From Neckera pumila (Eukaryota; Streptophyta; Bryopsida; Hypnales; Neckeraceae), in NCBI GenBank assembly GCA_963969595.1, contig OZ018412.1, positions 16,432,501 through 16,496,500 on the forward strand: a DNA stretch of 64,000 bases. The letters run 5' to 3'. Shown one piece after another: positions 45,220 to 64,000 of this stretch. The translations under genes were made by a program, and so were the position numbers. Positions within the stretch are counted from its first letter, which is position 1, and each line of letters begins with the position of its first letter. The notes beneath the pieces are model-generated. The model did not search any database and had not been told where the DNA came from. It worked only from the letters and a program-made list of their open reading frames with translations.

Positions 45220-45520
45220 TTATCCCCTAAAGGGCCAAGGCCTTTTTTCTGTCCAAAAACACTCAAAATTGCCATTTCTATAGTAAAGAGTAAAAAAGTT
45301 GAAAATTGTTTTTTTTGCACATCTAACCTTAGGATCTTCTACTTTACTAATATGAGAAAGTGTGGAAAAATTTCAGAATTTTTGACTGCATCAATTGCAA
45401 GATATTTGTGTTTAAAGTAAAAAAAAACAAATTTTTTAGCACATTGCAAGACTAGAATTTTTGACTTTGAACATTTTTAACTTCAATTTTTTGCACTATA
45501 GAGTTTTGAGCTTTAAATAA
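45220..45520. mobile_element. Family B left end, cut off at the boundary of the large element
   Basis: TATCCCCTAAAGGGCCAAGG starts a family B copy that aligns with 13263-13760 up to GAGTTTTGAGCTTTAAA (about 45517). There it stops and unrelated sequence starting TAAGGCCTTATTCG follows. The missing right part is not seen elsewhere in the window. Confidence 0.65.
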
Positions 45521-46312
45521 GGCCTTATTCGTTAAATTGAGACATTATGGTCATTTTGAGACTTTGAAAACCGGATGCAAAGGGCCATTGACTCAATAGG
45601 TGTTGAACCCAACGATAACTATAGTCCAAGTTACGACAACAGTAGCAACTCTTGAAGGGTTTCGCTCTTTGATTTGAAATGAACAAGTGGAATCCTATCG
45701 AAAGATTTCAAAACAAGAAATGTTCTTCCAAATAATGAGCCACAAAGTACATTGAAGATGGAAAAGAGATCACATTTACATTCAGTAAGCTCAATTAAAT
45801 TGAGAATTTGAATACAGAAAGAGTACGACTGTACCTTCGCTCAGAATATCATTTGAAGTGAACAAATTATATAGCGCTGAGTTACTACTTTGATTCGATG
45901 TACTAGAATGAAAGAGGCTCACTATACAAAAAGCACTCTATTTTTGTAAATCTTTTTTCTATACTCGATTATATATGCTATTAATAATAAAGAAGGCTCG
46001 AAAGCTAAGGACTTTAAGAACTTGTCCTCCTTCCCTACACACCACTAGTTCCTGTACAATTTATCTTTGCTGCATCCAGGGCTTTCTGTTTCTCACGAGC
46101 TCTCATGATTTCTTCGTATCGGGAAGGATATTGCACATAGTGGCAATTCAATGCACCATCCAAGTTCACACTTGGCTCCTTCCGCTTCCGCTTACTTGCG
46201 CTATGAAGAATTTTGGAGGCCGAAAAAGACTTAGACTCTCAAGGAGGTAGACTTGGCAACAATATATTGGGATTGCTTATGTACGGACAATCAGATCCAG
46301 TTGATGTTGAGC

Positions 46313-46888
46313 TTAAAGATCGCCGCCGGTCTCAAATATACCTTTGCATATGAATGCCGTCGATGGAGGGTAGTCGTCTGACTCCAATGGATGGCAATGG
46401 ATGTTGCTGAGAATTGTCATGTCGAGGTAAGCAAGCTGCATCCTTGCTAGATTTAGGAATTTTGCAAGGCGTGGCAAAGAAGGCTCGACAACATCATCCT
46501 CAGGGCAAAGATGTACTACAGCTTTGTCGATTGGCAGGTTCAGTTTCTGGTTCATCGCAACCTCTGTCTGAGGAGCCGACGAGAATGACCCTCCTCCAGC
46601 CAAAGATGCTTGTTTCAGCGGGGACGGGGAGCAAACGGGTGTCCTGAGGGGTCCTCGACTCGGGGGACTATCCACGATGCCGTCCTCAACGTCCCCCTTG
46701 GAATAGTCTATGGCCGCGGATGTTGCATCTGCTGCTAAGCGCAGCAAGTATGGCTTTGAAACCAGAGCAAGGCCGCAACTCCCTCTTTCGGATTTGCTGT
46801 AGCTCGAGATTGACTTCTCCAACCCAGACTGTAGGGTCCGCGTCATCCTCCGCTTGGAGGACGGAATTTTCCAACAATCCTCTTCAAC
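46313..46888 (-). CDS. Terminal exon of the minus-strand unit, unrecognised product
   Basis: An uninterrupted 191-codon frame that starts right after an acceptor-like TTTATACAG (46897-46889) and ends with TAA at 46313. It reads VEEDCWKIPSSKRRMT, then KPYLLRLAADATSAAIDY, an SP-rich segment (PPSRGPLRTPVCSPSPLK), and LPRLAKFLNLARMQLAYLD near the end. I do not recognise the domain. Base composition matches the other minus-strand blocks and differs from the AT-rich flanks. It is the only stretch here without stops or frameshifts. It could be the 3' exon of the long unit upstream or a separate small gene. Confidence 0.45.
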   Translation of the reverse strand, partial: VEEDCWKIPSSKRRMTRTLQSGLEKSISSYSKSERGSCGLALVSKPYLLRLAADATSAAIDYSKGDVEDGIVDSPPSRGPLRTPVCSPSPLKQASLAGGGSFSSAPQTEVAMNQKLNLPIDKAVVHLCPEDDVVEPSLPRLAKFLNLARMQLAYLDMTILSNIHCHPLESDDYPPSTAFICKGIFETGGDL

Positions 46889-47290
46889 CTGTATAAATTA
46901 CACATTAACCCAAGGCAGAACACCAGCCAACATCCTCCATGCCAAAGAAAAATACATCCAATGAAATTGGAAGTCTGAAAGAAAAGACAATATCAAAATG
47001 TGAACTCCAAGCTCAATATATTATTTATACTATTTACAAATGAATGTACACATGAATGAATGAAACACAAAGTATCATTATGGATCTATCAAACTTTGCT
47101 CGATAGTCTAGTTCCTAGTACAACGACTCCGCTCTATGACTACGTTATCCGACGGAAGTTCGTAGCGCGATCTCGTGTTCTGCGCGGAAGTTTTCATCGC
47201 ATTGACTATTTGTTGGTAACAGAAGTCACCCGAGACAAGCGGCATCTGACCAATCCAATTGGCCTCTATGTACTCTCTCGATCGTCTCGG

Positions 47291-47619
47291 TCAGATGTCC
47301 GAGACGAGACGCCGGAGCCACGGTAGGAGGTCCTCCATCAAGAAGTTGTCCTTTTGCCTCTCGTGGTCCCAGGAATCAAGCAGAATGCTATTCCCCCTCT
47401 CATTGCACACACACTTTTGAGGAGTGTCGTCAAAGAGAAGGGTGTTGTTCGTGCCAAAAGACGTGTCTCCACTATGATTGAGTAACAACGTCTCAGAGAG
47501 GACCTTCATGAAGACCGGGCTTCTACCGAAGTGATAATATCTTCCTCGAGTGGTCTCTATCCTTTTGCACTCATTCTGGCTCAAGACATCAAAGGGGAGC
47601 CTGCAACGACTAAAAATGT
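47291..47619 (-). pseudogene. HAD-phosphatase-like (FCP1/NIF type) C-terminal segment
   Basis: After an acceptor-like AGCTGCAG (ending 47620) the minus strand reads IFSRCRLPFDVLSQNECKR, then GRSPVFMKVLSE, NNTLLFDDTPQKCVCN and FLMEDLLPWLRRL, ending TGA at 47291. This parallels the C-terminal half of NLI-interacting-factor/FCP1-like HAD phosphatases: W.Q..C, KPL..K.LS, NTLL.DDSPYK...NP, L..YL..L. The DD of LLFDDTP would be the Mg-binding motif. The N-terminal DxDxT nucleophile motif was not found upstream, so the domain is incomplete or split over undetected exons. Such domains act on phosphoproteins; its role in this element is unknown. Confidence 0.5.
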
Positions 47620-47982
47620 CTGCAGCTATGGGTTTGGCGTTAGACTTAGCGTTACTCAATCCATTTTTGATAGTAAATATTGTATATATTATTAACAAAA
47701 TTTATATAATATGTTTGCAAAATTTGGTTTTCTGCTATAGCACAGCAGAGCTGTACACTGTGGACTATGCTACACTACACTACACGCAAGGCAGTCGAAG
47801 ACGGTTTTGCCGTCAGCGCCAACAAATCAAGGAATGGCGACGCCATTCTGCAAAGCAGAATGAATACAAATGAACCACCAAATCTACCGGTAGTTTTGGT
47901 TGTTGCCATACACACAACACAATTCACTACAATTCTAAGTATTTTGGACTCAATCGAAATTATAAGGCTCAGTGGATTGTAC

Positions 47983-49574
47983 CTGAGCGGTTTCCACCGG
48001 TTGTGAACCAACACCCTCTTCAGTTTCCTCGACTGCAGGTACGTCAATCCCGAATGAGTACATGTCCTCCTCCCCCTCTCCGTAGTCCACTCTCTCTTCT
48101 TCAAGAGGAACTGGCACATCCAAGTGCTCAACATCCTCCGTGGAGGTACCACATGCTAGCCCCTCCATGGGAGGGGCTTCAATTGCCGCCTCTGCCATGC
48201 CTGCAGCGGTATCGTCAACGCGACAATTGCCCTAATCTCTTTGCACAGCCCCAAGACCCTCGGAAGGGTTACCAGGGTCCTGACTGACTATCCCAAATTC
48301 TGCTTGATTAGGAGACGTGACTACTGGGAATTGGGACGCAGGAGTGGAGGCCACCACGTTGTCTTGGGTGGTAGGGACCATGTTGGCTCTATACTTGACT
48401 CGAGTATCCGGCAGCCTAGCGACCAGCTCCATGATTTGGTGCTTGATATTTGGCGGTGGCCCTGATGAAGACTGCTGCTGAGGGGTGCACATCGGAGTGG
48501 ATGCGGGAAGGCTTTGAGATTGCCCCCATGGAATCGACTAAGACGGCATCATGGACATGATGAGCGCCATCTGCAAACAAAGTTCTACAATTTCTTTGTT
48601 GGATTCCGCCTAGATTGCTGCAATCTTCTTATTTGAACCTCCTGCACTTCAGAGATTTTGGCAGTGGACGCTTTGCTGCTAGCTACCGCTTCAGCCACTT
48701 GTTTGTCTTTGGCTTCTCTCTTCAACTTCCTTTGCCGCCCTCGTTCTCTAGCGTCATCCTCTTCTTGCCACCAACCCTTCTTTTTCTTCACGGGGACTTG
48801 AGGTGTTGGGACTATAGCCTCTGAGGCACCGGATTCAGTGACCGCCCGGCTGTCTTGTAATTGGGAGGCAACGGGTGCAATGATTGCTTGGCTGTCTTGT
48901 ACTGGAGAGGCATAGGGTCTTGCAACTGCCTGGCTCTTCTTTGGCACGCTCTCATCGTTGAACTTGTCGTCGTTGTTGGAAAAATTCCGGAGGTTTGTCT
49001 CCGAGACAGACGGTTGGGGCATTAAGAACCCTCTTCATATTTTTTTGCCATTCCGGGAGGTCGGCATCTTCTACCTCCATTACATCCGGGTCGGGTTGAT
49101 CCCTCTCGCTCGAGGGCCCGGCTTCATGGTCTTTCTGCACCCGCGAAGGCGCAGCAGGCTTCTTCCCCTTGCTCTGTCGGCTTGGTCCAATGACCACTCC
49201 AACCCGCGTGGTTGGCGGGTCTGTGGAGACGGAAGGACATTTTATCCAGCCATAAACCTGGAATATGTTTGACCCGTACTAATCGATACCTTTGACTCCA
49301 GGATCCATTGTATCGTGCGGGCCCGCGGACTCTGTTCTCCCTGTGCAGTACCTGGGAGTGGATTGGGTGAGTCAAGAGCCATTGGTGGTGATTGCGACGG
49401 TGTAGCACCGACATCCACAAGCCCACGACGTGGCGGCGGGACATACGTGATTGAATACGGCGAATTAGAGAATAAGAAGTCCCTCATGTCCATCCGCTTT
49501 GCAAAATAAGTGATTTTGGAATAGCTCTTCTCGTCGTCTTTGTCCACAAAGGCATCGAAGAATGCAACGAACAT
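47983..49574 (-). pseudogene. Long basic/coiled-coil to acidic exon of the minus-strand unit
   Basis: Coding sequence runs through three frames, changing near 49240, 49020 and 48630. In order: MFVAFFDAFVDKDDEKSYSK; a proline/serine-rich part; DADLPEWQKNMKRVLN; FSNNDDKFNDESVPKKSQ; a basic stretch VKKKKGWWQEEDDARERGRQ leading into an Ala/Lys/Glu-rich probable coiled coil (KQVAEAVASSKASTAKISEV); SIPWGQSQSLPASTP; then an acidic tail DVPVPLEEERVDYGEGEED ending at a donor-like CAG/GTACAA (47983). In-frame TAGs at 48540-48538 and 48234-48232 are each explicable as CAG to TAG. The start may follow a mutated acceptor (CTGCAA before 49574). A basic coiled coil plus acidic tail suggests a DNA-binding or assembly protein; no family is recognised. 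Confidence 0.5.
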
Positions 49575-49878
49575 TTGCAGCAGTCAGTCAGTGAATTAGT
49601 ATTGGGTTAAATGCAAAGATATCAAATTGTCAGGGACTGATTGTTTGGTTGTTACCGTCGACACAAGGATAAAAGAATGTTCTAACACTCAAAAAATTAT
49701 GTGTATCATTCAGCCGAGGATACAAACTGCCAAAGACTTACAATTGAGTTTAAGGACCACAGTTATACTTGGGTCGAGGATACCAATCCCAGGAGTTCAA
49801 AAGACGAACCTTTGCATCCAACATAAATTTTGCGCCTGTGTAAATGCCGAGAACATTTTGCTCGGGAGTCGCAAAGGC
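49575..49878 (-). other. Probable end of the methyltransferase-like region plus intron-like gap
   Basis: Just past the TAA at 49881-49879 the same frame continues with AFATPEQNVLGIYTGAKFML to about 49745, so coding sequence extends into this stretch. Further on it is non-coding and contains one near-palindromic TATACTTGGGTCGAGGATA (49763-49781), the motif clustered at 53.0-53.7 and 61.1-62.0 kb. Confidence 0.4.
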
Positions 49879-52800
49879 TTACAAGATATCTAAGTAGAAA
49901 TTCATCCAAAGTTCTGTTGGGCTAATCCTCCATTTGAACTCCGTATTCTTGGCGGGGTCCGCGTAATAAACATTCGATGCTTGAAGTGTGCCGTACTCCG
50001 TTTTCAAATAGCAGCGGACAGACAACGCAAAAATGTCCTCCTTCTTAAAGAGGAAGATGACACTATAAGAAACCCATGTTTTTTGGGATGTTTTTATTGT
50101 TTTTTGGAACGCATTATTGTAGACATTGAATAAAACAACCCATGTTTTTGTGTCAACAATGATGTTCAATAAAAGATCAAGATGTTTTATTGAACATCAT
50201 TGTTGACACAAAAACATGGGTTGTTTTATTCAATGTCCACAAAAATGCGTTCCAAAAAATAGTGAAAACATCCCAAAAAACATGGATTTCTTATAGTGGG
50301 AGCAGCACGGGCGGAGCAACACCACGACTTGTGATGTTGTTCAGCATTTCGGCCTTGCATGGAACATATGTCAACTGGATGCAATCATACTCCTTGAACC
50401 TCAGAGCTGCAAATGATGTTGCGGCACTCATGTTGTCCAAGTCCTCCAAAATGAAGAGCCAAACGTTGGGCTCTGTCATTTTTGGCTATAACTTGGTTGC
50501 CAAAAATTTGAAGAGGGGATCCAAGTCTGTTGCGGTACTTGTAGCCCCGGTTCTCGGAATGTCTCGGATGTCCAGCACGGCGAGGGGAACCTCTCGGGCT
50601 TAATATTGATACCGCATGCTAGTCACTAGAGATTTTCCAATAATGTCAACCCCTCGCATTTCCACGACCCCTTCTTCTCTGAAAGTTGATACTTCAACTT
50701 CATGAACCGCAGGAACATGTGATAGACTTTTGCAAATTCCTTCTTCATTTCCCTTACGTATTTTGTCCATGACCGTTCTGCAATCTTTTCTTGAAGTAAT
50801 CCAGCTTGGGATGCGTTAGCAGGAAGTCCCAACTTCCAGATGTGAAGTGGTGGCACTGTTTCCAGGACCTCCAATCTTCGATCACGACATCCCCCCCATT
50901 ATCTACAAATTTAAGTGAAGACTTGATGTCCATTAGATCCTAACATACGACCTTCTTGCATTTCTTGCGCTCATTCCAGTCCGGGTTTGACATATTGTCC
51001 ACGACCAAAATTTTTGGTTTGCCGAATGACACCTTTGGATACACCACTCTCCTTTTTGGTGTGACACCAAGGAGATGCTGCGCTTGCTCTTCAAAATCCT
51101 TGTCCGTGAAGCGTCCCCTGTACCTAAAATCTCCCTTTTGAGGGTGACCCTTTTGTAATGCTTTCCTTCCTTGTAAGGTTTAGTGTGATGGGATCAATGA
51201 TATCGCCATCAACTTGCTTTGCCAAGAATTGCTTCCCGAACTCAAAGATATCGTTCAGAAGCGTCATTATCTGGATCTCATTTTTTAGGTCCAAAGGGAC
51301 TTCCAATATTTGCGCCGTCCTTGTCTGGATTCAAGCTCTGGTATCTGTCAACGACCGCGTCTATGAAGTTGTGTGGAGACAGAGAATTACTGATGTTAGA
51401 ATGAGGTTGGAGAGGTTAATATTGGCGAAACTTCTGCTTAATGTCGACCCAAAGATATGGTCCCTTTCCCATCGGGCCCTCCGGTAATCAAGAACACGTT
51501 GTACGTGATTGACAACAAGCCTTTATTGTTGAGTTGAGTATAAAGATTAGGGGATATGATTTTACCTTGTAGTTGTTTAGGTTGTAGACGGAGTCGTTGC
51601 CTTGAACAGCATTGTCATTCTTCTCCGGTGTTGGGCGCTTGCAGGCAATCCAGATGTTCCAACAACTAACAATCTGGTTCCCCCATGTTGACTAAGCGAA
51701 TTCCAGGTGATTGGTTGCGTTGTAAAACTGGGATATCTTCCGCAGCTTATTTGCATCCAGTGTCCACACACTGGATGCATCCCATCTCTGAAGCTCCACT
51801 TATCTTTCTTCGCCGCATCCTGATATCTGGAGCTCTAATGATGCGGTGATTCTGTGCTGGCCGTTTATGATCATGAATCGGCTGTTCTTGATCTCTTCCC
51901 ATGATCCCGGCTTCCTTAAAAGCAACTCATCTTTTTCGTTGACTGGCGTGAGGCATACCTTTTGCCGTTGCCTTATGTCAACGAGCATGATGAGGAAGTC
52001 CTTATTTTTGTCAATCAAGTCTCTCTGGAGTGCGCAGATGACGTACTGGTCTTTCGCAATTATGCATTGTTGATGTCCACGCTCACTGTCGCGTTGTCGA
52101 AAAGGAAGCAATGCTAGTGTTCCACCCAGAAGGTTTTCTGAATGATTGCGTGCTTCTGGTAGTCTTCGACGGGTTCGGCGGTTGGATTTGCCACGACCTG
52201 GATAAGGGCTGACCCGGAACTTCCAGCCCTAGCGGCTTCTCCACAATTAATTTTCTTCCACTTTCTTGTGGACTCAGCTCTTGTGGAAGTCGATTTGTTT
52301 CTTTTTTTCTGGCTTGGTTTCACACCTTGATTTTCTTCTCCGGTTGCACCAGATGGAGGTATTTTTGCAGCACTTGTCAAAGAGCTCCTGTCACGAGTAG
52401 CTTTCTTCCCACTTCTGATAGGGGCTCCACCTTCTCTACCGCATATCGATAGAGAATCATGAAGATCAGCTGCAATCTGGTGGCGTTTGCTTGTGTTGTG
52501 GTGTCTCTCCAAGGGACATACCCAAGTGTCTCAAACTCTTCATTTAGGGAGTCCATTTGGAATCCCTCAAGGAAGGTCATTAGATTCTTTAGGTCAAATT
52601 TTCCGTAGCTAGAGCACACATTTATTACGATGGAGTGGCAGTGCTTTCTAACTACCAAGTTGTCATCTACTTCTCGGAGGGTGATGACTACGTAGTTTTT
52701 TTGGTGATGGCTAATGAACATGACCTTCTCGTTCATGTTCCAGGGGAGATACTTTGTTTGACCCTGAACTCTGTATATTAGATAAACAAAGTTTTTCCAC

Positions 52801-52976
52801 CTGTTCATCTCAAAACTCCATATCTGGATGTGATCTTTAAACTGCCAAAGGGTGCCGAAGCTGTTCGCCATTTTGATGATGAAAGGTTTATCCTCCAGTG
52901 GATTGACAAAGGGCTCTAGATGGTGCTCTGTCTTTCTGTAGTCGTAGGCTTCATTCTCATCCATTATTTGAGACCT
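49745..52976 (-). pseudogene. ParB/Srx-like plus DNA-methyltransferase-like protein, decayed
   Basis: The exon starts after TTTTGCAG (52977); the first Met is at 52964 (MDENEAYDYRKTEHHLEPFV). The N-terminal ~190 residues (WQFKDHIQIWSFEMNRWKNF, VVITLREVDDNLVVRKHC) are unrecognised. Then a low-complexity KKRNKSTSTRAESTRKW linker, FWVEH-HCFLFDNATVSVDIN, and a ParB/sulfiredoxin-type core ending NSRFMIINGQHRITASLELQ (about 51850). Next come RWDASSVWTLDANKLRKISQ, ILVVDNMSNPDWNERKKCKK, WTKYVREMKKEFAKVYHMFL, VWLFILEDLDNMSAATSFAA, ASNVYYADPAKNTEFKWRIS and NVLGIYTGAKFML. The last resembles the late motif I (VLDPFAGSG type) of ParB-linked N4/N6 DNA methyltransferases, but key residues differ. At least four frame changes, several stops (51802, 51694, 49881) and a MITE interrupt it. 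Confidence 0.5.
50061..50298. mobile_element. CACTA-like fold-back MITE inside the methyltransferase-like exon
   Basis: 238 bp; the left end CACTATAAGAAACCCATG and right end CATGGATTTCTTATAGTG pair along nearly the whole length (arms ~110 bp around AAAGATCAAGAT). Flanking triplets on the minus strand are TCC and TCA, a 3-bp duplication with one change. Removing the element and one triplet rejoins the host frame from APPVLL to IFLFKKED, showing that it inserted into a coding exon. Confidence 0.82.
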
Positions 52977-53008
52977 GCAAAATAGAATTTTAATTATGTT
53001 AAGCACTG

Positions 53009-53726
53009 ACTATACTCGACCCGACGATATGTTGAGAACCCTTAGGTCATCTGTTTGAACGTAGAGAAGGGCAATAGAGGAGCGCCATGATTGTGTTTAC
53101 ACTCGATCCGACTGTCATTTCTTTACTTCAAGGACGATTTTTTATCTTAGAAGATGTTAGTTTTTATTTTCTTATTTTTCTTGTATGCTGTTGCAATTGT
53201 TATATAGTTAGGGTGTTATTGTTGATTCGAGTATACTCGCAAAATTTTGTTCTTTCTTCCGCGGTTCCGCCTGGTTTATTTTATTTTTACGCTTTTACTG
53301 TTGGATCGAGTATAGCAGTCTTCTTTGCTTCTGGTTTGATGCGTTGTCTGCTTGGGCTGGCTGTTATACTCGACACGATTAAGTGGTGGTAATTTGCTTG
53401 TAGGTGCTTTCTGTTTTCAACAGTTATTTTTTAGTATGCTGTTTTTGCAGTTAGTGTGATCTACTCGTTTAATGTTTATTATCGAGTTGAGTATAGCAAT
53501 CTTTTTTCTTGTGATTTGATTCGCTCTTTGCGTTCTAAGGCTATTATAGTCGATCTGATGATATGGTGGTAAATTGTGTTGTTACTGGCATTTATTTTTA
53601 GCATTAAATCCTTGGACCTCACTAGGCTACTTACGCAATTAGTGTTTATGTGCCACTCTAACTGTTTATCATCGAGTCAAGTATACAAATACAATCTTCT
53701 GTGTTGACGGGTGATATCCTCGACCC
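53009..53726. promoter_or_regulatory. Cluster of TATACTCGAC-type near-palindromes upstream of the minus-strand unit
   Basis: About ten copies in 720 bp, for example TATACTCGACCCGACGATAT (53011), CGAGTATACTCGC (53228), GGATCGAGTATAGCA (53303), TATACTCGACACGAT (53366), ATCGAGTTGAGTATAGC (53481), ATCGAGTCAAGTATAC (53671). They occur in both orientations on an AT-rich background. The cluster is repeated at 61066-62042. Confidence 0.7.
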
Positions 53727-53730
53727 GAGA

Positions 53731-55654
53731 ATAAACATCATAACGAGGACTTCGTCAAACGCATGCCTTGTACTTCCTAAACCCTAATCTACAGCATCCT
53801 GACCAACGCTCCCTAAATTCTAATCCACAACATCCTGAGCAACATTCCCTAAATCCTAATCCAAAACTGCCAACTTAGCTACTAAGTTTATTGTTTGACA
53901 AGAAATCGCGCAAATGAAACGTACCTGGAAGCTAAACAACAAAGTTCCCCCTCAAATCCAAGAAAAAAGACAATAACACCCTCTGATTTTTGCCAAATTC
54001 TGCAATGACAATGGTAGAATTTAGATAATTGAGAAAACAAAAAACAAGACACAGAACATATGAAGGAAGGAAATGAAGAGCAACAACTCTGAAACAAAAA
54101 CCATCACAAGAAATTATTCAACAAAAATTTTTATAGCTGAACCCTAAATGCAATTGTCTGGAAAGGCATACCCTAAATTCAAATGCTAAATCTTGAATGC
54201 AATTGTCTATAAAGGCATATCCTAAATTTAGATGTTGAGCCTCAAAGCAAAATCGTCAAAGCAAAACCCTAAATCCCTCAAAGCAAAATCCTAAATCCCT
54301 TAATGCAAAATCCTAAAAGGAAATTGGATCTTCAAAGCAAATCCCTCAAAGCAAAACGCTGAAAGCAAATCGGATTTTTCAACTAAGCTAAATCTAAGCT
54401 CAACCCTTGAATCTAGACAAGCAAAATGCTGAAGGCAAACCCTTTTGTGAATGAATTCTCGACACCAACAACAAGGCATTTTTTTTAGTGCTACATGTGC
54501 GCCAATTGCACCAACACTCGCACTGCTTGTGTTTCCCAGCAAACCTTCTCCAAACCCGAAAAAGAAAACTCCCCGCGCTCCTCACAAAAACCAAAAATCC
54601 CTCACCGATAGAATGAAGAAAGCATAAAACAACCACTAAGAAACTTATGCACATCTGCAATCTTAGTCACTCCAGCACCCACCCTCCACTCGCTCTCGCT
54701 TTGGTCCAACACCGCACTATCACTCCTCCACAACACTGGTCCACCGCACTCCAACAACACTGGCACACAACAAATCCAAAAACAAAACTCTGGAGATGGA
54801 ATTGAAAAATAGAACCCTGCGCCGCTCTTCTCACTCTCCGAATGCTTGACACCTTGGCGATGCAATTGAAAAACAAAACAATGGTTACTTTTAGTAAAGC
54901 AAAAACGGTGCGACACTGCTTCCCCAAAACATGAAAGTAAAGGAAAAGAGAAAGCAAGAATGCACTGTAAGTACCTGCTTCAAACTAAAGGGATAAGTCA
55001 CACAACGCAGCCTACGCACTCGATCCGTTTGATTTCCAACGAAAAACTCAAAACTCAAAATTCAAAATCTCTTCTACAGAGCAAAATCCGAGGAGACAAT
55101 TGCAATCTCGCTTCGGGCTCTAAATCCTAAGTGTGAAATACAAGAATAGCCTCAGGAGCTCGCTGTTTTTCCTATAATGATAGTGAGATGTCAGGCAGCG
55201 AGCATCTGTTTGTCACGATAGGTTTGAAAAAGAAAAATTGCAGTTACTCAAAATCCTAAAATCCAACACTGCATCATAGCAGACAGACACCGCCCCAAAG
55301 TGAATTTATCTTCATAGATTCCAAACTCAACAATATAGGAATTTAATTGAGCTCCATGCAAATCGCGTCTCCGGCAAAAAACCTTAAGCAAATCCACGCA
55401 AAATCCCCCTCCAAGTAAGGTTCAAAACTGTTGCTACATGACTATATGCGACGCTCTGACAAAACCCTGGCGACGCAATGAAAACTCTCCGAATGCTCTT
55501 TGACGAAACCCTGGTGCACAATGCAAACAAAACCTGGCGCCGCCTTTGAAGGGAGATGACACCCACCCCAACCTGGTACGTTCCTTCCGAACCTCCTTGC
55601 CAAACGTGAATGTTATTGCCGAATCTCCTAAGCAAACCCCGAACCTACATGCCG
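53731..55654 (-). other. GC-richer leader-like region with minisatellites
   Basis: 53765-53880 is a ~43-bp tandem (CCCTAAATYCTAATCCA-AA). 54241-54370 is a ~22-bp tandem of TCAAAGCAAAACCCTAAATCC. 54600-55600 is relatively GC-rich, with minus-strand frames but no recognisable product or continuity. It may be the promoter/leader of the minus-strand unit. Confidence 0.4.
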
Positions 55655-56721
55655 AACCTCTAAAATTGCCATTTGGAATTGTTAAAGTACCAAATTTTGG
55701 GAAAAAAACGACTGAAAAACAAATGTAACCAAAGGATCTTATAGTATGGTGACTTGAAAGCATGCGGTAAAAATTTCGGAAACATCCACCGCATGGATTG
55801 CAAGATATAGGCATTGAAACTCAGTAAAATCATTTTTTGGGCCCTGTAAAATACGTGGCAACAACACTTTACAAGCTCACTTTCAATGAAAAATGTTTAA
55901 AATGATGGTGCCTCTCTGGATACTTTTTTTTAGAGAAGTTGGCTACATGCTCAGAAAATTTCACATCATTTGGAATTGTTCAACATAATTATTGGTAAAA
56001 AACAATTGTAGAGAATGATACAAAAAACTAAATTGTCAAGAATTTAATTATAGAACTGGAAAATCCCAATCCCAATGGTTGCAATGTTTGTTTCTTTTAT
56101 AAATTGGAAATTGAATAAGACAAAAGACATCAAGATTTATTCTAGAATAGTGAATCCATAGTTACCTGCCCGCAAACTAAAATCTTCAATTGTCTGCAAA
56201 CTAAAAGTTGTCATAATTTTTAATTCATTGATCAAAATGGGATGATTCAAAGCACTATATATAGGGATAACTCCAAAAAACGAATTATAAATATTTAATT
56301 TTTGAAAAAAGTAATTTTTTGATCTAATATCCGGTGTACCCAATTACAAAAAAAAAATAACATATTAGGTCTTAAATTCTTACTCAAATTTCCAAATGTC
56401 ATGAAAATTGATCAAAATGGGATGATTGAAAGCATTACATATTAATAGAACTCTAGGAAACCAATTCCAAATTTCTTTTTTTGGAAAAAGTAATTTTTTT
56501 TATTTATCCAAACTGCCCAACTACAAAAAAAAATAACATATTAGGCCATAACTTCTGACTCACATTTCCAAATGTCATGAAACTTAGTGCATATGAAAGA
56601 CATTCCTTGTCCATACCTTTCATTAAAATTGTAGCCAGAAATTTAGAAATCTCCAATCACACGTACTTGCCCAAAATCTCTAAATAGCCATAAAACGCAT
56701 GTTGGTCTTTTAGATGTTAAG
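55655..56721. mobile_element. Family A copy, left end lost, inside the large element
   Basis: Follows family A from GAACCTCTAAAATTGCC to GCATGTTGGTCTTTTAGATGTTAA (TTAA at 56717-56720). An internal ~190-bp stretch (GATCAAAATGGGATGATT) is duplicated at 56230 and 56408. Confidence 0.68.
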
Positions 56722-56865
56722 GAACAAAGTTTAGGGTTATAAATCATTTCTTCCACATACTTAGATATGGACTTGATTTTGAAGAGGACTATTTATGGCA
56801 AAGTGAAGATGACTACTTACAGCAATTTTTGAGTTAGTTTCCAACTGGCTAATTGATTTTCTACA

Positions 56866-58655
56866 TTTACTTCAATACAAATTCTATAATTTTATAGAAA
56901 TTGGATTCATTAAAGTATTATTGATGTTGAAAATTCAATTTTAAAATGACTTTTTAAACTATGTAAACACGTGTTTGAAATTTGGGTTAACATAAATCTT
57001 ATAATTATATTAAAAAAGTTTCCAACTTGTTGGATTACTTTTTTCAATTATTTCAATACTAACTCTATGACTTTTTAAACTTGGGTTCATTAAAACATAG
57101 TCAATATAAATTTATTTTTTATTCACATTTTAAACTATGTAAGTACGTGCATAAATTTACTAGGATGAAAATGAATTCTAAACTAATATGAAATCTAAAT
57201 TAATATAAAATCCAAATCCATGTGTCTCTTTTTAATGACTCATGAAGCTTTAGGCCTGTGAAATGCATGGCCAATTTATGTTCACAAACACTAAAATACA
57301 GCAAACGTTGTACTTTGAAGGAGTCATGGCAAAAATGTCATGCAATTTTTACGTAATTGCATAAAATCAAGTCCAACAGTGCAATCACAAATTCTTTATG
57401 TTTGGATTATTTACAGCTTGTCCATTTTTTTTTCATGGTCTTTGCATTCAAAGTTCATGACATTTGAGTCTTTGGTTCATTAAACTACAATCCACTGGCA
57501 ATTGATTTTTTTTGCTTTATGAATTATATTCAAGAAAATGGGGCTCTAATTTTTGTGCAATCACAAATTCTTTGTGATTGGATCATTTACAACTTGTACA
57601 TATTTTTTTTCATGCTCTTTGCATTCAAAGTTTATTACATTTGAGTCTTTGGTTCATTAAACTACAATCCACTGGCAATTGATTTTTTTTGCTTTATGAA
57701 TTATATTCAAGAAAATGGGGCTCTAATTTTTGTGCAATCACAAATTCTTTGTGATTGGATCATTTACAACTTGTACATATTTTTTTTCATGCTCTTTGCA
57801 TTCAAAGTTCATGACATTTGAGTTTTGGGTTCTTTAAACTATAGTCCTTGGGTAATGGATTTTTTTTGCTTTGTGAATTATATTCAAGAAAATGGGGTTC
57901 TAATTTTAGTGCACTCACAAATTCTTTTTGTTTGAATTATTTACAACTTGTACATTTTTTTTCATGCACTTTGCATTTGAAGTTCATGACATTTGAGTTT
58001 TTAGTTATTTAAACTACAGGGCATGGGTAATTGATTTTTCTTTTGTTGTGAATTATATTCAAGAAAATGGGGCTCTAATTTTCAAGTGCTCACCAAATCT
58101 TTATGTTTGGTTTATTTACAACTTGTATTTTTTCTTCCACGCTCTTTGCATTCTGATTTCATGACATTTTAGTTTTTGGTTCTTTAAACTACAGGGCATG
58201 GTATTTAATTCTTCTTCTTTGTGAATTATGTTCAATAAAATGGGGCTTGTAAATTATGTTCAAGAAAATTGTGAATTATGTTCATTTATTTCAATACAAG
58301 TTCTATAATTTTATAGTAACTGGATCCATTTAAATATTAGTGATGTTGAAAATTCAATTTTAAAATGACACCCTAAACTATGTAAATAAGTGCTTGAGAT
58401 TTGGATCAATATAAATCTCATAATTATATTAAAAAAATATCCAACTTGTTGGATTATTTTTTTCAATTATTTCAATACTAACTCTATGACTTTCTAGGAC
58501 TTGGGTTTACTAAAACATAGTCAATATAAATTTAGTTTTTATTCAGACACATTTTAAACTATGTAAGTATGTACATGAATTTACCAGGATTAATATGAAG
58601 TCTAAACTAATATCAAATCTAAATTAATATAAAATATAAATCCATAAATTTCTTT
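56866..58655. repeat. ~370-bp direct repeat (56866-57235 and 58284-58655)
   Basis: Both copies run through ATTCAATTTTAAAATGAC, TATGTAAA-A-GTG-TTGA-ATTTGG, TCCAACTTGTTGGATTA and AACATAGTCAATATAAATTTA. The second copy splits the 177-bp tandem array, so array and repeat were amplified together as a higher-order unit. Confidence 0.7.
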
Positions 58656-59530
58656 TTCACAGTCCTTGGGTAATGGATTTTTTTTGCTTTGTGAATTATA
58701 TTCAAGAAAATGAGGCTCAAATTTTAGTGAGATCACAAATTCTTTATGTTTGGATCATTTATAACTTGTCCATTTTTTTTTCATGCTCTTTGCATTCAAA
58801 GTTTATGACATTTGAGTTTTTGGTTCTCTAAACTACAGTCTATAGGTAATGGATTTTTTTTGCTTTGCAAATTATATTCAAGAATATGGGGCTCCAACTT
58901 TAGTAGGACTGTGGGATCACAAATTCTTTACGTTTGGATCATTTACAACTTGTCCATTTTTCTTTCATATGCTCTTTGCATCCAAAGTTCATGACATTTG
59001 AGTGTTTGGTTCTATGTAGTACAGGCCACGGAAAATTGATGTTTTTTTTATTGTAAATTATATTAAAAAGAGTTGGACTCTAGTTTTAGTGCGCTCACAA
59101 ATTGTTCATGTTTGGATTATTTATAACTTGTACATTTTTTTTTCATGCTCTTTGCATCAAAGTTCATGACATTTGAGCCCTTGGTTCATTGAACTACAGT
59201 CTACAGTCAATTGAATATTTTTTCTCTATGAATTGTATTCAAGAAAATGGGGCTCTAATTTAGTGCGCTTACAAATTGTTTATACTTGAATTATTTACAA
59301 CTTCTGCATTTTCTTTCATATGCTCTTTTTATTCAAAGTTCATGACATTTGGAAGTTTGGTTCTTTAAAGTACAATCCATGGGTAATTGGCTTTTTTTTT
59401 GTTGTGAATTATATTCAATAAAATGGGGCTCTAATTTTAGTGTGCTCACAAATTGTTTATGTTTGGATTATTTATAGCTTGTACATTTTTTTTTTCAAGC
59501 TCTTTGCACTCGAAGCTCATGACATTTCGA
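57385..59530. repeat. Tandem array, ~177-bp unit, about ten copies
   Basis: TCACAAATTCTTTATGTTTG-like unit starts lie near 57385, 57561, 57738, 57915 and 58090, then after the 58.2-58.66 kb interruption at 58733, 58916, 59095, 59268 and 59446. Each unit continues with ATGCTCTTTGCATTCAAAG, TTCATGACATTTGAG and ATTCAAGAAAATGGGGCTC. The second and third units are nearly identical, the outer ones diverged, as expected for recent unequal exchange in the middle. No coding sense. Confidence 0.85.
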
Positions 59531-60399
59531 ATTTTATTAAGAAATAATATATCTCATGCATGATTTTCATGAGATTCATTGTATAAACTATAGTGACAAT
59601 TTTGTTTAATTATTTTGAATGGTCTTAAATACGCAACCAACTTCATGAATGATTAAAGATGATGACTTCATTTGTCAGCACAAGTTGCAAATAGTTTAGG
59701 CATTACTTTTAAATGTATGGCTGCATTCAATTTACTACCCATGTTTTTTATTTTACATTGGAACCCGAAAAGAATGATCCCTACCCTGGATTTTAGAAAA
59801 TCACAAATGCATGAGTAAAAAACAAATGTGCTTGCAGGCTTTTTAAAAAAAATGTAAAAGTTGAAAATAGTCTAGGTATTACTTTCAAATGCATGGCCGC
59901 ATTCACTTTGCCATACAATTTCTTTCCATACGTAAATGCATTGTTTTTATGGTTTACAGATTTGTAGTTTATGAAAGTGCAAAACATGGCCCATTGGTTT
60001 TTTGTTCCGCAAACCTTAAACCTAAAATCCTAAACCCTAAATCTTAAATCCAAACCCTAAACCCTAACCCCATACCTTGATTCTACTCCTTAAACCCAGA
60101 AGCTTGAAACCGCCACGTATAAAGTCGCAAGGAATTTGTAAAAAGCAACAAAAATGAGGGTTTTTTGTTTGACAGCAAGACACGTGCAAAAAAGCAAGTA
60201 GAAAATTCATTGAGAACTGGAAAAAAGAGCACTCCGTGATTTTGTGAGTTAAGCACTTAGAATCGAATAAAGCAATTGCAGCAATAGTAGGGAATTGTCA
60301 GGAATGGATCGCTTGGTAGATCTTTTTAAAGCCTAGAACAGTTTTTGACGTGGAAAGAACTAAAAGCGCCCCAAAATTGGGAGGGCATTAATGTTTGTT
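59531..60399. other. Intergenic with interstitial telomere-like repeats (60022-60073)
   Basis: 60022-60073 contains degenerate and exact copies of the plant telomere unit (CCTAAACCCTAAATC, AAACCCTAAACCCTAACCCC). The rest is AT-rich with no supported gene. Confidence 0.7.
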
Positions 60400-62092
60400 G
60401 CCAGGCTTTTCAAACGTCAAATTCTAGCACCCGTTGCCTTCGAGCAATTTTGAATCTTCAGAGTTTCGCGCCTATCGACTTCAAAAAAATTTTAATCTTC
60501 TGATTTTCACGCCTTCTTTCCTTCTCGCGCCTTCCTTCCCGTGCCTTCCTCTTGCAAGCCTCCTCCTCCGCCAAACACCTTGACATCCCGTGCTTTTCTC
60601 TCTGGCGCAAGCAAGCGGCATCAGCGATTCACTTGCGTTGCTGCTTCTGCATCCCTCTCGTGCACCGCATTGCCTTTTGATCTGCGGGAGTAATTATGTA
60701 CCTCTCCCGATTCCATGTACTCCGTGAAGTGTGTGAAGGTTGCAACTTGTTTATCTAGATCCGTTTGTGGTAAGCAATGTTGTTCGTTTTCTAGTTTGCG
60801 TAGAACCTTGTTCTTCACGTTTCTGGACACCTCATTTCTCTCATTTTTGTTGCTTATCAAGCCTGCACGCATTTCATATTCTTTACTTCCCTAGATGAGA
60901 TATCAATGAGTAAATTAAAAATGTTTTGTTTGTGTAGCAATTTTGTATGCAGGCGTCACTCTCTGAGTTTCTCTGATGGTGAATCGCTATTGGCTCCACG
61001 TTTTGCGGCGAAAATGTCAAAAGTATTTTCAGGTATATTTGTATTTGTTTTGGAAACTATACACCTATACTTGAGTCGACTATAATCATTGAATGAGTTG
61101 TCATTTTAGAAACACCTTAATTGTCTCATGATTTCAGACACTGTAACAAAACGTACTGTAGTCAAGTCGACTATACAATGACTCATTTGTTTTTCTCGAC
61201 TGGATACAGTAGTCTATCACAAACTAGGGCTCAGGACCACTTTAGAAATTTGACCTGAACTATACTCGATCCGAATATAAGCATCGAACAATTTGTCATT
61301 TCAGGAACACCTTAATTATCTCATGATTTCCAGCACTGCAATAAAATGTAGTATAGTCGATTCGACTATATAATGATTCATCCATTTCACAACTGCCTAC
61401 TCCAGTCTATCAGAAATTATGGCTCATGACGACTTCTGAAATTTGACCTGACTATATTCGACTCGACTATACGGTAATAAAGACAATTGTTGATACAATT
61501 TTTCATCCAATGATAACTGTAATGTTACTCGTATTTTACCGTTTGTGGGAGACATTGGAGACCTTTCGCATGCATCTCTATACTCGTGTAGACTGAAACT
61601 ACTGTGTCTATAGTCGAGTCGACTCTAGATGGAGAGTCACACTTTTAGTATATTGCGGTTTCAATTTTTTACATAATTTTCTTCTTTTACTCTTCCACAA
61701 TTTCTATTGTTAGTGGTATAAGTAAGTTTGTGGAATGGCAAGTTTGTTTTCTTTTTAATATATTCGACATCTTTGTGTTCTCTAGGTCTTGTTCCTAACC
61801 TCCACTAAACATTCAAATATATCAATTGTACCGTCATTAGGAAGTAGTGTAATCTAGATTAGCTGGTAATGCCGCTTGAGGATGAAGATATGGAATGATA
61901 GTACTTCTTTATTTATAGTTGGCTCGACGATAGCTTGTTGTTTTGATTACATATTCCATTGTTTCTAGTACATTGTCTGTTACTTTGGAATGTAATCGAA
62001 ATGTTTCCGTAGTTACACTATGTTATACTCAAGTCGAGTATATTTATCATTGATGTCAGTTTCATTCATCATTTTGTTGTTTTAGGTTCACT
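60400..62092 (+). promoter_or_regulatory. Promoter/leader of the transposase-like gene with iterated palindromes
   Basis: 60400-60900 is a pyrimidine- and GC-rich leader-like stretch. 61066-62042 carries about nine copies of the TATACTCGAC-type motif, for example ACTTGAGTCGACTATA (61070), GTAGTCAAGTCGACTATA (61158), ATACTCGATCCGAATATA (61262), TATAGTCGATTCGACTATA (61347), TATAGTCGAGTCGACTC (61609) and TATACTCAAGTCGAGTATA (62024). An acceptor-like TTGTTTTAG/GTTCACT (ending 62085) precedes the first ATG by 7 bases, suggesting a leader intron. Confidence 0.6.
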
Positions 62093-64000
62093 ATGCATGG
62101 GCCTGAAGAATTTGCTAATACGGTTCCAGTTTTGCCTCCGCACGTGCCTCCGGATGTCGCTGTATGCAATGGAATCCCTCGTTCTTCATGGAACACTGAG
62201 GGAGTCACCCTGCAAAACGAAGCGGGTGATGATGTCGCACACACAGTTTGTCAGAACGTCGACCACGACCTCGTCATTGACACGGATGGGCGGCCCCTTG
62301 GTGACAACCGAGTTGCTGTTTAGATTGTGGAGTCTTTGTGCAAGGAGGAAGTTCCATCAGCTTGGATGTGGTCGATGCACTCTTGGGACATTCGAAGGGT
62401 CTTTTTGAACAATGCCAGTTTGTATGACCATGAGCAAACACACATATACAAAACAACTTTAAGCACCTTGAACCGTCGTGCTCGTGTTGGAGTGCGTTCT
62501 TATGAGAGTTCTCAAGTTCGGATTGAGGTCAGCCTTCCTTTTAAGAAAAAATCTCTTCTTTTTCAACAAGCAATTCTTCAAGTGTCTACACAATCATATT
62601 GCAAGAATAACTGTCTACAGCCTTTTCCCCGTTGAGAAATTCAAGCCATACGTTCTCAACTTCATGCAAACGACGGATTTTATGCCTGCTAGAAATGTCT
62701 TCTTGAAGTGCATAGGCAGATGCACACCAACGATGCCGGTAAAGAATGGGTAACCTTGAAAAAGATTGAGGTGTGTCCTGCCGCTTGGTGGAAGATTTAC
62801 GGAATTTTGAAGGCTACATTCTACAAGTACAAGCACAAGGCCATGTTTGGGAAGCAAGCGGAGGGGCATGGGAATTTGGGATCCAAAAAACCTCGTACGC
62901 ATATTGGTCAAGCTACCGCCACACTTTAGATGTTGGTTGTAAGTGAAGCTGACATGATGCCACACAAAACAAGGACACTAGGAACCGGAGAGAAAATCAC
63001 CACAATGGTGTTGCCCTCAACGTTTTATTGGAGCGACCAATTACCAAAAACCAATGAGGCTAATGTGGCTTTGAATTTACTGCCCATTTCTTCTAGTGAT
63101 TTGAGTAACATTAGGTGTGCTTCTTTTTTAGAGTATGTTGTGAAGGCTCCAGGAGATTCTTTTGCAAGGTGTGCTCAATGTGATATATATAGGCAATTGA
63201 GGAGCGCTTGCACACCACTTTCTCACACACAGAATAAGTATGCTACACTTTTGCAAACTCACCTTAGGGGGCAAAAGGCCCACAAAAAACTATAATATGC
63301 AAATCGTTATATTTCTGAGAAATACCTTGAAAAGATGCTCACCATTATCCATGATAAAATGGATCACTTGAAGACTGCTTCTTCCCATTTCTCTCACAAG
63401 ACCACGGTGATGGATTCTTTCATGAAAATGCCCGTCACTATTATTGGCATGATTGCTCATGGTCATGGCGATGTTTGGTACGCGCATTACGGCTTGGACT
63501 TTTTTCCAACAGACTCAAATCACACCATTGGATCCATTGCAAAATTGTTGCGTGATCTGGAAGGGCAACCAAAAAATTCATCACGCGAATTGCCTATAAA
63601 ATTTGACCACGATGGACTGATCAAAAACACCCAATCTACATTGACGTAGGCTGTGTTGGAAGGCTCGAAAATGTGCTTGGACTCCCTTTTTCCTCCTCCA
63701 TCTGAACCGATCCTTGCTCAACCTTTGCCACCTGTATTGACTCTGCAGCTTGACAATGCGTCAGGAGACAATAAGAATCGATGGGTTTTTGCTTTTTGCT
63801 CTCTTCTCGTTTTGAAGGGCATTTTTTGCGAGGTGTATATTAATTTCCTCATTGTTGGGCACACTCACGAAGACATTGATGCTCTTTTTGGTTGATGGAA
63901 CTCTATGTTGAAGACAAATAGCTACCAGACTATTCCAAGGCCCATGAAGTCCTTCATAGACTATGAAACACATCCTGTCATTCCTCACTTGATTGAAGAA
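62093..64000 (+). pseudogene. DUF7869-type transposase-like gene, seven in-frame stops, runs off the window
   Basis: One frame stays open in sense from ATG 62093 to the window end (636 codons) apart from seven stops: TAG 62321, TGA 62633, TAG 62690, TAG 62927, TAA 63293, TAG 63647, TGA 63893. There is no frameshift. The N-terminal ~75 residues are unrecognised (MHGPEEFANTVPVLPPHVPP). Motifs: WSDQLPKTNEAN (~315); a CxxC pair FARCAQCDIY (~360); IIHDKMDHLKT (~420); LQLDNASGDNKNRWVFAF (~552) and VGHTHEDIDALFG (~588). These are the landmarks of the DUF7869 family found in DNA-transposon proteins of many eukaryotes; D421/D424, D554 and the HTHEDID acidic residues would be the RNase H-like metal site (inference). 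All stops can be C-to-T of CAG, CAA or CGA. FG-stop-W at 63893 sits where an Arg is plausible. Confidence 0.8.

Follow-up and report, generated by a model that had tools for sequence, protein, structure and literature searches.

The window analyzed here is a 64,000-nucleotide stretch of the genome of the moss Neckera pumila (GenBank assembly GCA_963969595.1, contig OZ018412.1, positions 16,432,501 to 16,496,500 of the forward strand). It contains a decayed copy of a multi-copy 20-kb DNA transposon. The element carries a DUF7869 gene on the plus strand and, divergent from it, a minus-strand module made up of a gene characterized by the motif NGQHS, with a methyltransferase-like second exon, and a phosphatase. 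Frameshifts and stops interrupt both genes in this copy, and clusters of palindromes lie upstream of each. On balance, we favor the interpretation that this is a Sola-like moss transposon with an accessory module, in which an element-encoded protein reads the palindromes for anti-silencing or operator control.

Both gene blocks belong to one element

The genome searched comprises 339.5 Mb in 18 contigs, in which the window is C5:16432501-16496500. Both ends and collinear copies place the element at 45519..65536 (20,018 bp), its last 1,536 bases falling beyond the window (L009:1536). The left terminal inverted repeat (TIR), on the plus strand, occupies 26 bp (45519..45544), 25 of which are matched at the right end. 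The left copy of the target-site duplication, AAAT, lies at 45515..45518, and its partner directly follows 65536. With up to two mismatches allowed, the left-end sequence GGCCTTATTCGTT has a single match in the window. When positions 45521-46500 were used as a probe, 33 of 58 genome matches (the window's own included) began at the first base of the probe. The left end proposed in an earlier note on this DNA is thus real, but the true terminus is 45519 (AAGGCC...), two bases further out. Two other copies end at one and the same point in the continuation (L009), which places the right end at 65536. The partner terminus and target duplication (AAAT/AAAT) that the earlier note had expected beyond 64 kb were in this way recovered.

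Six copies have both ends, and five of these have perfect 4-bp duplications: AAAT/AAAT for the window copy, GTAT/GTAT for each of C11_0.66, C4_12.3, and C2_34.1, and CATT/CATT for C2_15.3. The sixth, C6a, has one mismatch (TTTG/TTTA). The window copy, C11_0.66 (19,535 bp), C4_12.3 (18,637 bp), and C2_34.1 (19,179 bp) contain both blocks; for C6a (12,084 bp) and C2_15.3, alignment on the DUF7869 side is limited to its last part. Four further copies (C9a, C11_4.8, C11_1.57, and C11_8.17) retain the minus-strand block at least partly, and the right-end pattern was not found within the 30 kb examined for each; same-strand right-end matches lie farther out, at approximately 45 kb (C9a) and 52 kb (C11_4.8) from the left end. 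On another contig (G000:C9:12701241-12756982), two element copies are inverted relative to each other, with first exons 33 kb apart and equal scores for the four proteins searched, which suggests a recent inverted duplication.

Genome-wide protein searches, which scored the best candidates only and therefore give lower bounds, returned 94 matches to the first exon of the minus-strand gene (79 loci after merging), 87 to DUF7869 (scored from 944 candidates), 83 to the second exon, and 120 to the phosphatase; 101 phosphatase rows entered the linkage analysis, short second pieces having been excluded by hand. A divergent DUF7869 match lies within 40 kb of 47 of the 79 exon-1 loci (53 of 79 in any orientation), and 25 of these 47 divergent pairs are spaced by 8.5 to 9.3 kb. 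In 1000 rotations, the number of divergent partners averaged 1.66 and never exceeded 9. At 65 of the 79 loci, the second exon follows on the same strand within 6 kb, and at 63 of them within 712 bp. The earlier note had reckoned with the possibility that the plus- and minus-strand blocks never occur together elsewhere; together, the two ends, the 4-bp duplications, the collinear copies, and this linkage bear out its proposal of one large element with both blocks.

The phosphatase is divergent to DUF7869 at 47 of the 58 DUF7869 loci that are at least 58% identical to the query, and at 7 of 29 more distant loci (rotations: mean 1.06, maximum 5). Approximately 13 kb from one distant locus lies a stretch that matches the second exon at 32%. 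Exon 1 was detected at none of the 29, so that the module is either rarer there or has diverged past detection. The 12.3-Mb contig C11, which makes up 3.6% of the assembly, holds 29 of the 79 minus-strand gene loci; it might be a sex chromosome or another poorly recombining chromosome.

Purifying selection acts on both DUF7869 and the minus-strand module. Between C2_34.1 and C4_12.3, the ratio of nonsynonymous to synonymous substitution rates (dN/dS) was 0.30 for exon 1, 0.14 for exon 2, 0.41 for the linker, 0.25 for the phosphatase, and 0.27 for each of two DUF7869 frames; the C4_12.3 frames compared contain one stop in exon 2, two in the linker, and one in the second DUF7869 frame. Comparison of the window copy with six relatives gave 0.10 to 0.51 for exon-1 pieces, 0.22 to 0.38 for the phosphatase, and 0.28 to 0.57 for the linker. 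Three DUF7869 pieces of the window, compared with one relative, gave 1.10, 0.34, and 0.38. Close copies are numerous in subfamily C, which is described below, and several are stop-free in the matched stretches.

The DUF7869 gene as a putative transposase

The broken DUF7869 gene occupies 62079..64000 on the plus strand and runs on into L009. The motifs LDNASGDNKNR and GHTHEDIDALFG, quoted in the earlier note, lie in the open reading frame (ORF) 63650-63895, which matches Pfam DUF7869 with E=7e-26. Aspartates 419, 422, 545, and 587 are kept in 24 of 24 proteins, and in the DUF7869 model the aspartates fall in an RNase-H-like order; fold matches were weak. DUF7869 is most likely, as judged from a model, a DDD transposase that would move the element. 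Among the 120 relatives listed, the organisms named are Ceratodon and Physcomitrium.

The backbone of the element probably belongs to the Sola superfamily, to which it is likened by description (4-bp duplication, DDD, moss) and not by transposase sequence. Available excerpts of two sources describe Sola elements as having a DDD-type transposase, TIRs of 11 to 1124 bp, and in some cases a length above 15 kb, and as occurring in moss, with 4-bp duplications reported in Physcomitrella (PMC9033089, PMC10741241). Our element resembles Sola1 of Physcomitrella in its 4-bp duplications, in TIRs within the reported size range, in its putative DDD-type transposase, and in its moss host. It differs in its accessory module and palindromes, which these excerpts do not mention for Sola (PMC10741241, PMC9033089). 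A limited search of the open-licence literature found no paper naming DUF7869 and none on the accessory module or the palindromes. The earlier note's view of the element as undescribed is at best weakly supported, for its backbone may be that of a known superfamily.

A conserved minus-strand module

The first exon of the NGQHS gene (51566..52964, minus strand) contains frameshifts and stops. It is followed by a broken second large exon (approximate limits 49800..51400) with a methyltransferase-like C terminus (NVLGIYTGxKF), by low-complexity pieces of a linker exon (47950..49583), and by the C-terminal remnant of an NIF/FCP1-like HAD phosphatase (47291..47701), all on the same strand. Every motif quoted in the earlier note is present in the sequence, IINGQHR in the minus-strand ORF 51800-52228 and LLFDDTP in the minus-strand ORF 47291-47701. 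An alignment search for exon 1 recovered 36 homologues at E<=0.1 (7992 candidates scored), none of them from UniRef or nr. Three lie on contigs of 46150, 460842, and 212732, sizes equal to those of contigs with DUF7869 relatives; this is suggestive of shared contigs, though not proof.

The earlier note assigned this gene to the ParB/Srx type on the strength of NGQHR. A GxHR-type motif with a conserved arginine is a ParB/Srx-like feature. The motif reads NGQHS in 33 of the 36 homologues and NGQHN in one, and is absent from two; the motif was also found in six other element copies, and neither these nor the homologues have the arginine, which is private to the window. At E<=1, the Pfam ParB models matched none of the 36, and no credible ParB match was found in Pfam, NCBIfam, or PHROGs; a single ParB-like PHROGs match (E=0.019) falls outside the NGQH region. 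With neither a ParB family match nor a conserved arginine in the NGQH motif, we rejected ParB membership.

The methyltransferase assignment rested on a short C-terminal motif, NVLGIYTGxKF, a candidate for motif I of S-adenosylmethionine binding, which gives weak profile matches to two arginine methyltransferases (E=0.11 and 0.13). N6/N4 DNA methyltransferases have DPPY/W as their catalytic motif. At the place where we would expect it by our own placement, the sequences read HPKL, HPKP, APPN, RPDK, and QPGD; because this place is not conserved, an active methyltransferase was rejected.

The HAD segment stood up better. A related open frame in C2_34.1 matches Pfam NIF with E=1.7e-11 (44.5 bits, gathering score 21.8), and the family shares VVVWSS and DDSP motifs with NIF/FCP1-like phosphatases. 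The window's own remnant, taken alone, has no Pfam match; its N-terminal half is missing where approximately 500 bp, present in six other copies, have been lost at 47650-47660. The canonical nucleophile motif of NIF/FCP1 enzymes is DxDx(T/V). Motif I reads DLNG in both relatives aligned, and because of this departure from the canonical motif, phosphatase catalysis is uncertain on sequence grounds.

From conservation and linkage, we infer that the NGQHS/methyltransferase-like gene and the NIF-like phosphatase form a conserved accessory module. Accessory genes acting on DNA are also reported in other DNA transposons, namely Sola2-Fanzor and viral Mariner elements with a methyltransferase (available excerpt of PMC3627910), in which both the genes and the hosts are different. 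Kolobok lineages, according to the excerpt of PMC9587614, are likewise DDD/E transposons with lineage-specific accessory proteins; those are exonucleases, a RecQ helicase, a His-Me nuclease, and KolX, set apart from the present module by name only.

Palindromes clustered upstream of both genes

The palindrome TATAsTCGAnTCGAsTATA is clustered upstream of the minus-strand gene (53010..53728), with a second palindrome cluster upstream of the DUF7869 gene (61065..62043). Of 26 half-site matches in the window, 24 fall within 53.0-53.7 kb and 61.06-62.05 kb; when the element part was shuffled ten times by single bases, 0 or 1 appeared. The earlier note was thus right that the two blocks share an upstream motif cluster. 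The palindromes are 19 to 21 bp long and have the core TCGAnTCGA with three types of arm, each symmetric. In subfamily B (C2_34.1 and C4_12.3), they read TTAtCTTCGAnTCGAAGaTAA; in C2_34.1 they precede both genes, recurring in an array with a 49-bp period on the DUF7869 side, and also lie between exons. Arms of a similar kind (TTATCy) occur in subfamily C (L035 and L039) and in contig L036, and L037 and L038 have TTCAGC arms; 11 of 13 sites in subfamily C have one core mismatch. In L036-L038, which come from another assembly, a core-free scan for 19-bp palindromes returned 18, and 16 of them were these sites, upstream and between exons. These three contigs are filed under an uncultured cyanobacterium metagenome-assembled genome (AVDCRST_MAG81) yet encode the plant-type element, and they are probably mis-binned plant DNA.

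Palindrome number varies among copies, from 26 in C2_34.1, 23 in C4_12.3, and 16 in the window copy to 8 in C11_0.66, 7 in C6a, and 6 in C11_4.8; C11_1.57, C11_8.17, and C2_15.3 have 1 each, and C9a has 0 in the stretch examined. Twenty shuffles each of the window copy and C2_34.1 yielded 0 to 3. Genome-wide, there are 40 window-type sites in 17 clusters (0 in a reversed control), and 39 of the 40 lie no more than 15 kb from one of 355 element features; the neighborhoods of these features amount to 1.57% of the genome. Sites of the B/C type number 574 (control, 0). For 33 of the first 50 in the list, a known element feature is nearby. One of the remaining 17 was read, and it is a 255-bp derivative (L040:419-673) with the element's ends and little else; it has one palindrome with an exact core and one with a core mismatch (by eye), and no matching 4-bp duplication.

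A proposed role for the palindromes and its alternatives

These distributions lead us to regard the palindromes as putative sites for an element-encoded protein. In the mechanism that we propose, DUF7869 would serve a Sola-like, cut-and-paste element as its DDD transposase, and the accessory module would consist of the NGQHS and methyltransferase-like protein plus the NIF-like phosphatase. The palindromes would be bound by one element-encoded protein, most likely the NGQHS/methyltransferase-like one. Binding may protect the genes of the element, and its small derivatives, from silencing by the host, as VANC does, or may regulate them as an operator.

Anti-silencing of the VANC kind fits because the sites lie in non-coding DNA, change between lineages, and are present in a small derivative. 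VANC of Arabidopsis binds a short motif, and methylation is lost; its targets are often arranged in tandem repeats differing from one related element to the next (available excerpt of PMC5735166). Like the VANDAL/VANC system, the element may thus have a non-transposase protein and has clustered non-coding motifs that differ between related elements (PMC5735166, PMC10398659, both as excerpts); repeated, element-specific motifs in non-coding DNA, a feature of VANC-type anti-silencing, are present here. The sites differ from those of VANC in being 19-21-bp palindromes with a common core. The likeness is one of description, and there is no sign of the same transposon superfamily. The arms are alike in subfamilies B and C, whose proteins are 38% identical; arm type therefore does not simply follow the protein.

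A stronger form of this proposal, which we offer only tentatively, is that Sola-like giant moss transposons evolved self-recognition independently of VANDAL, with an NGQHS and dead methyltransferase-like protein, a phosphatase partner, and lineage-varied palindromes that protect even 255-bp derivatives from silencing. If true, this would be a second example from plants of a transposon labeling itself through short sites of its own. The common core and lineage-varied arms would allow a direct test of which binding protein goes with which site and may point to new sequence-specific DNA binders. A transposase role is also suggested for the large DUF7869 family, which has no named function.

Alternatively, the transposase of a Sola-like element could use the palindromes as internal binding sites, leaving the minus-strand genes to some unrelated role, for example in DNA repair or chromatin signaling. 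Transposases commonly bind repeated internal sites, and here the sites are retained with the ends in the 255-bp derivative. However, the majority of sites are found not close to the termini but upstream of genes and between exons, and the arms differ between subfamilies A and B, whose terminal 26 bp are nearly identical; we consider this explanation unlikely.

We are similarly doubtful of pure autoregulation, in which an element protein would repress its own promoter and that of the transposase through the palindromes, with no role in anti-silencing. The positions of the sites, ahead of both genes and between exons, agree with such an operator, and their near-perfect symmetry would fit a homodimer. 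Operator function leaves the sites in the coding-free derivative unexplained, and the minus-strand gene has no match to a DNA-binding family.

An endogenous DNA virus or virus-derived element would account for the large size and the several genes, and Mariner elements with a methyltransferase are reported in viruses (excerpt of PMC3627910). TIRs and 4-bp duplications are instead typical of a transposon, and of eight C2_34.1 ORFs scanned, the only matches above Pfam cut-offs were NIF and DUF7869. When viral contigs were scanned three times, using alignments of the NGQHS exon, the second exon, and DUF7869, no relative was confirmed, and we rejected this highly improbable origin. Least probable, and rejected as well, is the chance adjacency of two unrelated elements, or of an element and host genes, for although the window copy is decayed with a nested insertion and some loci have one block only, matching ends enclose both blocks in four of six both-ended copies and linkage (47 of 79) far exceeds the rotation maximum of 9.

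Other features of the window copy

A miniature inverted-repeat transposable element, a near-perfect foldback with CACTA-like ends, is nested in the second large exon (50061..50298). It is missing from all five other copies that span this place, and empty sites in two other copies suggest a 3-bp duplication with one mismatch. Downstream of the phosphatase, an exon-like ORF (46313..46897, minus strand) has, by inspection, a similar ORF at the same place in C2_34.1 and C4_12.3. Between the divergent genes lie tandem arrays (57378..59527) that are common to other element copies; their unit of approximately 177 bp is of satellite-like size.

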